A DNA stretch of 64,000 nt from Acidobacterium sp. S8 (GTDB lineage: Bacteria; Acidobacteriota; Terriglobia; Terriglobales; Acidobacteriaceae), in the NCBI RefSeq assembly GCF_009765985.1, contig NZ_LMUM01000034.1, positions 469,508 through 533,507 of the forward strand. Direction: 5' to 3'. A program made the translations under genes and the position numbers. The first letter of the stretch is position 1, and each line of letters begins with the position of its first letter. Shown piece by piece: positions 27,269 through 29,769 of the stretch. Under the pieces are notes generated by a model. The model did not search any database. It was not told the DNA's origin and saw nothing but the letters and a program-made list of their open reading frames with translations.

Positions 27269-27287
27269 TATGACACCTTGTGTCATA
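27269..27287. promoter_or_regulatory. Perfect palindrome, candidate operator of the WYL regulator
   Basis: TATGACACCTTGTGTCATA: two perfect 8-base arms around the spacer CTT. It lies in the 96-bp gap between the divergent dinB-qor operon and the WYL-SpoIIE gene, 40 bases from each start. Position and symmetry fit a dimeric HTH regulator acting on both promoters. Binding itself is inferred. Confidence 0.7.
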
Positions 27288-27325
27288 ATTGCCCATTCTC
27301 AAAAATTTACTTCGAGATGCATTCC

Positions 27326-28840
27326 ATGAGAGCTGATCGCCTGATGTCCGCCTTGTTGCTGCTTCAAGCTCGCGGTCAGATGACCGGTCGAGAGCTGGCG
27401 GAGAAGCTTGAGGTCTCCGAGCGGACTGTGCATCGCGACATGGAGGCGCTGAGCGCGTCCGGGGTGCCGGTCTATGCCATGCGCGGATCACATGGAGGCT
27501 GGCAGCTGGATGAGGACTGGCGTACCCAGGTGCCGGGCCTCGATGAGGCCGAGCTGCGCGCTCTGCTCATGGCGCAGCCGCGCTCTCTGGGTGACAAACA
27601 GCTGGCTGCGGCGGCCGACCGTGCTATCGGCAAGCTCATGGCCTCTTTGCCGCAGTCTTTGCGTGAGCGGGCATCGTCTATCCGTGACCGCCTCTATATT
27701 GACACCACCGGCTGGCTGGGTACCTCGGAGAACCTCTCGATGCTGGCCATCGTTCAGGAGGCGGTGGCACGCGACCGCAAGCTGAGCTTCCTTTACTGGC
27801 GAGCGGGCCGCGAGAAGGTCGAGCGCACCGTCGATCCGCTGGGTCTTATTGCCAAGGGAAGCACCTGGTACCTATTCGCCGGAACCGATCGCGGTTATCG
27901 CACTTATCGCATCTCGCGCATGGAAGATGCGAAGCTGCTTGATGCGCCGAGCGTCCGTCCGCGCGACTTCAACCTGGAAGCGGCATGGAGAATCTCCGCT
28001 GAAGAGTTCCGCGACGAGGTGAACCGCGAGATCGAAGCCTCGCGCCTCGCATATGCCGCGCGACTGGAGGCCGAGCGGCGAGCCTTGCAGGAGATGGAGA
28101 TTGCCAAGCAGGTGCAGGCGCGGCTCTTTCCGCAGCGTCTCCCGCCTTTGCAGTCGCTCGACTACGCAGGTGTTTGTATTCAGGCGCGACAGGTTGGCGG
28201 CGATTACTACGACTTTCTGCATCTCGGAGAAAACCGGCTGGGACTGGTCATCGGGGACATTGCGGGCAAGGGAATTGCCGGCGCTTTGCTGATGGCAAAT
28301 CTACAGGCCAATCTTCGCGGACAGCTGGCGATCGTCCTCGATCATCCGCATCATCTCCTCCACTCCGTCAACCAGCTCTTCTACGAGAACACCGGCGACA
28401 GCTCTTACGCCACGCTCTTCTACGCCGAGTATGAAGATCACATCCAGCGCCTGCATTACGCCAACTGCGGTCATCTACCGGCTCTACTGCTGAGAAGCGG
28501 CGGAGATGTCGACTGGCTTCACTCCACTTGCACGGTTGTCGGCATGTTTGCGGACTGGCAGTGCGAGACGAAGGAAACATGCCTCAATCCCGGCGATACA
28601 GTTGTACTATTTACCGACGGAGTGACAGAAGCCTGCAACCAGCGGGGCGAGGAGTTTGGCCTGGAAAGGCTCGCCGACAGTTTGCAGCGGAATCGCCATT
28701 TACCGTCACAAGATTTGCTGAAGTCCATTGCCGACGAGCTGCAGCTTCACAGCCCGGAAGAACAAGCAGATGACATTACACTCATCGTTGCAAAATGCCG
28801 TGAAACGGAACAGAAACAGCTCTTTCCCCAGCCGGTGTAG
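27326..28840 (+). CDS. HTH-WYL transcriptional regulator fused to a SpoIIE/RsbU-type phosphatase
   Basis: A protein of about 504 residues in one uninterrupted frame. Residues 1-60 form a DeoR/YafY-type helix-turn-helix (MTGRELAEKLEVSERTVHRD). About 130-215 is a WYL domain with WYL at 181-183 and the Arg cluster YRTYRISRM. A charged coiled coil (about 226-268, ending KQVQARLFPQ) leads to a PP2C-like phosphatase (about 275-500) with intact metal motifs: GGDYYDF, GDIAGKG, NCGHLPAL, FTDGVTEA and ADDITLIV. The linker resembles that of RsbU proteins. A DNA-binding ligand sensor carrying an active-looking serine phosphatase is not an arrangement I recall. The start ATG 27326 begins the HTH; ATG 27317 is possible. 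No anti-sigma partner is nearby. Confidence 0.9.
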   Translation: MRADRLMSALLLLQARGQMTGRELAEKLEVSERTVHRDMEALSASGVPVYAMRGSHGGWQLDEDWRTQVPGLDEAELRALLMAQPRSLGDKQLAAAADRAIGKLMASLPQSLRERASSIRDRLYIDTTGWLGTSENLSMLAIVQEAVARDRKLSFLYWRAGREKVERTVDPLGLIAKGSTWYLFAGTDRGYRTYRISRMEDAKLLDAPSVRPRDFNLEAAWRISAEEFRDEVNREIEASRLAYAARLEAERRALQEMEIAKQVQARLFPQRLPPLQSLDYAGVCIQARQVGGDYYDFLHLGENRLGLVIGDIAGKGIAGALLMANLQANLRGQLAIVLDHPHHLLHSVNQLFYENTGDSSYATLFYAEYEDHIQRLHYANCGHLPALLLRSGGDVDWLHSTCTVVGMFADWQCETKETCLNPGDTVVLFTDGVTEACNQRGEEFGLERLADSLQRNRHLPSQDLLKSIADELQLHSPEEQADDITLIVAKCRETEQKQLFPQPV

Positions 28841-29211: not shown

Positions 29212-29574
29212 TTAATAGGAATGGGGATAGCCGTGCATCAGATGCTCTACGCCTACCTGATATCCGCGACGGAAACCATCGCGATAGGCCTCGCGATCAT
29301 GATGGCCTACAGGAGGATGACGGAATTCATCGCGGTTCTCCACGCTGGGCTGACGGTGATTCTCGTAATCTTTTCGAGCGCCTTCGATGCCGTCGTGGAA
29401 GCCTTGCGACTCGACTCCCTGAAGCTCTGCCGGAGCGGATGCCCATGGCTCATGCCCATATCCTGGAGGCGGTGGCGGGGGTGCCGCATATTGCGCCTGT
29501 GCTGCGGGGATGCTGAGTAAAGTAGCTGCCATAAACGCTGCCAACGATAGACCGGGGATTATTTTTTTCGTCAT
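29212..29574 (-). CDS. Small exported protein of unknown function
   Basis: A 120-residue protein with a Sec signal (MTKKIIPGLSLAAFMAATLL, cleavage at AQAQ), a proline run YAAPPPPPPGYGHEP, and a mature part rich in His, Arg and Tyr. Two similar segments are seen, GFHDGIEGARKDYENH and AYRDGFRRGYQVGVEHL, separated by a short NRDEFRHPP stretch. I recognise no enzyme motif. The start at 29574 is supported by GGAG eight bases before the ATG; longer upstream readings are non-coding in character. It stands alone, with a strong terminator just after it and a REP element about 195 bp upstream. Confidence 0.82.
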   Translation of the reverse strand: MTKKIIPGLSLAAFMAATLLSIPAAQAQYAAPPPPPPGYGHEPWASAPAELQGVESQGFHDGIEGARKDYENHRQPSVENRDEFRHPPVGHHDREAYRDGFRRGYQVGVEHLMHGYPHSY

Positions 29575-29769
29575 GTGGGTTTCTCCATTTATCGGAATGG
29601 GTTTGTGCCCATCCTCTTTTTGTCCAGACCCCAGTTTCGATGAAGAGATGCGCAGGCATGTTGTATGGAGAATTTGCTTACGGAAAGGCAACCAAAAGTC
29701 GCTGAATGATTGTTTGGTTTCGTGAATCCGCGACATCTCAATCAAAATTTGCGCCAAGTTATATGGACG

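Follow-up and report, generated by a model that had tools for sequence, protein, structure and literature searches.

The window, by which we mean the whole 64-kb stretch of DNA analysed here, carries on its forward strand a frame (27326–28837, stop codon at 28838–28840; 27326–28840 with the stop included) encoding a 504-aa protein in which an HTH_11 domain, a WYL domain and a SpoIIE/RsbU-type phosphatase follow one another. An in-frame ATG at 27317 leaves the start uncertain by 3 codons. All three domains were found with Pfam above the curated cut-offs: HTH_11 at residues 8–59 (27347–27502, +; E 1e-15), with the recognition helix SERTVHRDMEAL, which our alignment shows to be almost identical in unfused regulators; WYL at residues 139–203 (27740–27934, +; E 5e-19), with the WYL motif at 181 and RTYRISR at 192–198; and the phosphatase of the PPM type (SpoIIE, PF07228) at residues 302–491 (28229–28798, +; E 8e-48). 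Every metal motif of the phosphatase is present in the alignment (GGDYYDF starting at 291, GDIAGKG at 310, NCGHLPAL at 380, FTDGVTEA at 429 and ADDITLIV at 481), and fold matches agree with the assignment. This confirms the sequence-only reading, which had seen an HTH, a WYL and a PP2C-like phosphatase with all its metal motifs in one frame. An N-terminal winged HTH followed by WYL is the arrangement of HTH-WYL regulators, while the C-terminal WCX domain carried by their majority class A is missing, and a coil and the phosphatase stand there instead. Bacteria usually keep transcription factors and RsbU-type phosphatases as distinct steps of a pathway; here, in a soil bacterium, a DNA-damage-type regulator is joined to a stress-signalling phosphatase that looks intact. 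The whole genome yields 12 SpoIIE and 2 WYL matches, and the fusion is the only protein in both lists.

The fusion is present in six genomes, four of them from the family of the window's genome, one an Acidobacteriaceae MAG and one from another family of the class. Full-length orthologues were found at 81% (L001, genome G001), 78% (L044, in the single-contig genome G003) and 75% (L006, the MAG), and more distant full-length fusions at about 65% (L045, G038, another genus) and about 63% (L086, G452, another family of the class), the last two being assigned the same HTH-WYL-SpoIIE architecture by Pfam. The sequence-only reading had named a sequencing artefact among the findings that would undo it. 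Such an artefact, or one of assembly, can be rejected, since the fusion recurs in six genomes, its junction at residue ~230 free of gaps, and the three closest orthologues include one from a single contig. In the recognition helix of the G452 fusion (6420–7880 of L086, −) H is changed to Q, and a catalase-like frame follows the gene. Among 399 genomes of the class, a frame combining a regulator match with the phosphatase was found only in G000, G003 and G452, and the three candidates scored per genome in 396 genomes of the phylum included no additional full-length fusion, so the architecture is rare. Outside Acidobacteriota the search comprised a pattern-based scan of genome contigs and a search of plasmid records; no plasmid record covered 80% of the protein, and spread by plasmids was therefore rejected.

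The two halves have different relatives. Those of residues 1–229 are unfused acidobacterial regulators of about 320–330 aa (57–70% identity for the nearer ones), whose last ~90 residues resemble a WCX domain, an assignment made by length and position against published descriptions (PMC6789036; PMC10693628) rather than with a profile. Judged by sequence, residues 1–229 are a SiwR-like HTH-WYL regulator minus its C-terminal WCX dimerisation domain. The nearer relatives of residues 230–492 (about 60–68% identity over coil and phosphatase) are acidobacterial proteins such as L011 and L005, in which an N-terminal glyoxalase/VOC domain precedes this same coil and phosphatase; others are long membrane-type proteins. 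The VOC-SpoIIE proteins differ from the fusion in that VOC takes the place of HTH-WYL, and neither an HTH-WYL gene nor an operator context was seen with them. They begin to align at the same residue, 230, and continue without gaps, so that alignments of the fusions with both parent families put the junction at residue ~229/230 (nucleotide ~28013, +), ungapped in all six. A single origin of the six fusions was not rejected by either the HTH-WYL tree (p-AU 0.51) or the phosphatase tree (p-AU 0.23), although inner branches are weak. Two or more independent fusions, with G038 or G452 separate, are unneeded in view of the unrejected clade and the ungapped junctions, and the weak branches leave them possible.

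Identity in pairwise comparisons of the fusions is 83–94% for HTH and WYL (89–94% for the HTH among four of them) versus 64–82% for the phosphatase domain, which thus evolves faster. This would suit a plain transcription factor, in which the phosphatase half mainly substitutes for WCX as a dimerisation module and catalysis is dispensable; WCX is the dimer module in PafBC (PMC6789036) and in the model of SiwR (PMC10693628). Against such a reading, the acidic metal-ligand positions are retained in 6/6 deeply diverged fusions, and in HTH, WYL and phosphatase dN is far lower than dS wherever dS is estimable, dS being saturated in several cells of the comparison. Purifying selection acts on both halves where dS could be estimated, and we regard a dispensable phosphatase as improbable.

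Upstream of the fusion gene lies a divergent DinB-family gene (PF05163/PF12867; 26717–27229, −), which the comparison of neighbourhoods suggests is the regulator's probable target. The intergenic region between them contains a 19-bp palindrome, TATGACAC-CTT-GTGTCATA, at 27269–27287. It is a perfect 8+3+8 inverted repeat (TATGACACCTTGTGTCATA), for which 0.05 matches at up to 3 mismatches would be expected by chance in the window. A near-identical element, CATATATGACA-N5-TGTCATAATT, is located upstream of the regulator gene in 5/6 fusions and in most unfused regulators. We searched the genomes of the class with a 24-bp motif and found it, at up to 2 mismatches, in 19 of 398, versus one match for the reversed control; the regulator (E ≤ 1e-45) is present in 20 of 399. 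Fifteen genomes have both, and in all 15 the motif sits just upstream of the regulator (hypergeometric p about 1e-19, a value that is overstated because the genomes are related). This comparative evidence makes it very probable that the palindrome is the operator of the fusion protein's regulator family, at the position, its own promoter and that of DinB, expected for HTH-WYL regulators. A promoter scan at the fusion gene found no consensus −35 and no consensus −35/−10 promoter. Inside the operator, the half-site TGTCATAAT (27281–27289, +) resembles an extended −10 element, and in this role, with no consensus −35, it would suit an activator-dependent promoter. A large regulon in the window's genome was rejected, as the 19-bp motif at up to 2 mismatches gave 9 sites versus 7 for the reversed control, the sole perfect site being the fusion locus.

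Several observations were made on similar sites and on the surroundings of these genes. In G346 a second operator-like site (at 1501 of L146) lies upstream of another DinB-like frame, possibly a further target of the unfused regulator, and in G031 a palindromic operator-like site (at 1501 of L144) lies between serine-acetyltransferase-like and ring-opening-dioxygenase-like genes. An operator-like site was also seen at a different HTH regulator, YafY-like and about 230 aa long (G279; 1465–2157 of L127). An HTH-WYL gene of G449 (5110–5784 of L085), with operator and DinB neighbour, ends early after a WYL insertion and is probably disrupted. In the window itself, a frame for a small protein (29212–29757, −), with a signal-like stretch and lacking any Pfam match, has been retained next to the fusion in G001 and G003, and a gene with a Y1/IS200-like transposase domain (PF01797; 29904–30452, −) is located nearby.

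The closest described system is SiwR (MSMEG_1359) of M. smegmatis, an HTH-WYL-WCX homodimeric activator encoded beside DinB-superfamily genes, in whose promoter it binds a 19-bp imperfect palindrome, and which depends for activation on one pair of arginines in the HTH and another in the WYL domain (PMC10693628). The fusion shares with it the order of HTH and WYL, the adjacent DinB-superfamily gene and a 19-bp promoter palindrome reaching the −10 region. Arginine pairs of equal spacing are present as well (R33/R37 and R192/R195 in the fusion, R38/R42 and R204/R207 in SiwR), matched by motif rather than by direct alignment. SiwR differs in belonging to another phylum and in having WCX where the fusion has coil and PPM phosphatase; sensing and activation by the fusion are assumed by analogy. 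Given this precedent and the operator shared by fused and unfused regulators, the fusion protein probably still binds DNA. The parent HTH-WYL-WCX proteins dimerise via WCX, and its loss might impair DNA binding. Nevertheless, as WCX is the dimer module of PafBC, a dimerising coil and phosphatase in its place could preserve the DNA-binding dimer, and a class of WYL regulators without WCX exists (PMC6789036).

The arrangement of the neighbouring genes bears on what the HTH-WYL half does. The regulator, fused or unfused, is usually divergent from a DinB-family gene, and in 4/6 fusions this gene is adjacent with the operator in between. In G003, the DinB gene lies about 5 kb away from the fusion, with a peptidase-like gene in that interval; the operator has remained with the fusion, and the DinB gene showed no inverted repeat when one was looked for. 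Both the operator and a DinB neighbour are missing at the G452 fusion. One could thus propose that HTH-WYL has become only a sensor and dimerisation module, with the operator serving autoregulation alone, control of DinB lost and the phosphatase as the main output. The G003 locus fits this proposal, and so do the exchangeable N-terminal sensors of the phosphatase's relatives, which are VOC or membrane/GAF-like and, in the window's genome, response receiver, GAF, FHA or HAMP domains. The four loci that keep DinB divergent across the operator speak against it, and we consider it rather unlikely, if the strongest of the alternatives.

We then come to the link between the two halves. An AlphaFold2 model of the single chain (30-row alignment; mean pLDDT 82.5, pTM 0.55, with low confidence around residues 61–100) predicts one continuous 51-residue helix from WYL to the phosphatase (residues 217–267; 27974–28126, +), the kind of helical linker by which PPM phosphatases are connected to their sensors. 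In Foldseek searches the back half best matched the RsbU domain of Rv1364c, SiaA, RssB and SpoIIE, and the front half DriD bound to ssDNA and DNA. Phosphatases of the RsbU/RsbP/SpoIIE type (PMC12143880; PDB 3ke6, 6k4e, 3f7a, 5ucg) resemble the fusion in PF07228, in all metal motifs and in an N-terminal sensor attached via a long helix; unlike the fusion, whose sensor would be a DNA-binding HTH-WYL, they carry PAS, GAF, receiver, HAMP or RsbU-N domains. In RsbU a coiled-coil linker brings about dimerisation and activation of the phosphatase, and the many sensors found before such phosphatases have been proposed to be exchangeable (PMC12143880).

The explanation we favour, to which we give about an even chance as a whole, is that of a SiwR-like factor whose WCX dimerisation domain has given way to a coiled-coil linker and PPM phosphatase derived from a VOC-SpoIIE protein of Acidobacteria. 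Its HTH dimer would sit on the 19-bp operator and control both its own gene and the DinB-family gene divergent from it, as the comparative evidence strongly suggests. By analogy with SiwR, DriD and PafBC, the WYL domain may sense a nucleic acid or a similar anionic ligand. A ligand-induced change in the dimer could then pass along the helix and turn on the phosphatase dimer, as the coiled-coil linkers do in RsbU, and the phosphatase would dephosphorylate a substrate whose gene lies elsewhere, an anti-anti-sigma factor with a STAS domain being the likeliest candidate. A single signal would in this way act locally at the DinB operator and, post-translationally, through a second output. More tentatively, the occupancy of the operator-bound, nucleic-acid-sensing factor by ligand or DNA might allosterically gate the phosphatase and tie the sensing of DNA damage to a partner-switch stress response. 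Both activities are predicted, and the modest pTM, the G452 locus and the lack of nearby STAS and RsbW genes are counterpoints to the favoured explanation.

With regard to the substrate, we built HMMs from the STAS and RsbW/RsbT-like proteins of the window's genome; these recovered their source proteins and found no STAS or RsbW-like genes in the window, at the fusion loci or at the VOC-SpoIIE loci examined, so that the linkage of such genes to the phosphatase gene typical of partner switches is lacking there; a local partner-switch operon was rejected on these results and on tblastn. Elsewhere in the genome we found seven STAS matches, two of which adjoin HATPase_c_2 genes, several RsbW-like genes, and an RsbR/S/T-like cluster on contig 29, which makes a STAS substrate encoded in trans possible, and our default guess. 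Where substrates of SpoIIE/RsbU-type phosphatases are known, most are STAS proteins. This and the seven STAS genes weigh against a bifunctional protein of the same design whose target is a phosphoprotein without a STAS domain, outside sigma-factor partner switching, to which the absence of STAS and RsbW genes from all these loci would be favourable; we judge it to have a small chance. The sequence-only reading had proposed that one protein may link ligand sensing to both promoter control and a sigma-factor partner switch. The fusion as a real and conserved protein, the intact motifs of both halves and the very probable operator are borne out, whereas the partner switch found no support in genes of the window or near the fusions.

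Finally, we searched the full-text literature, supplementary files and subscription papers being outside its scope, and found no description of an HTH-WYL-phosphatase protein, in line with the earlier reading, which knew of no described example. The architecture may have been seen yet left undiscussed, as architectures with under 100 sequences are omitted from display in PMC6789036. Fusions of WYL to enzymatic domains are already known, those in the main text of Makarova et al., 2014 (PMC4012209) involving Cas3, nucleases, helicases and others but no protein phosphatase, and so are varied sensors before PPM phosphatases; the protein described here joins these kinds in a new form. The exchange of a WYL regulator's dimerisation domain for a phosphatase would extend the proposed set of exchangeable sensors (PMC12143880) to DNA-binding modules. 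One protein may both read DNA and turn on a stress pathway, and it offers a compact test case for the possible switching of a PPM phosphatase by bound DNA or ssDNA. For the VOC-SpoIIE proteins no description was found either. With VOC (glyoxalase), coil and SpoIIE in order, they are a widespread acidobacterial type (L002–L005, L007, L009, L011, L017–L034, L041, L042 and L051–L054), the architecture being assigned by Pfam for L011 and L041 and by sequence similarity for the remaining members. In some actinobacteria a glyoxalase-like gene is the neighbour of the SiwR-type gene (PMC10693628), recalling the VOC domain to which the phosphatase is joined elsewhere.
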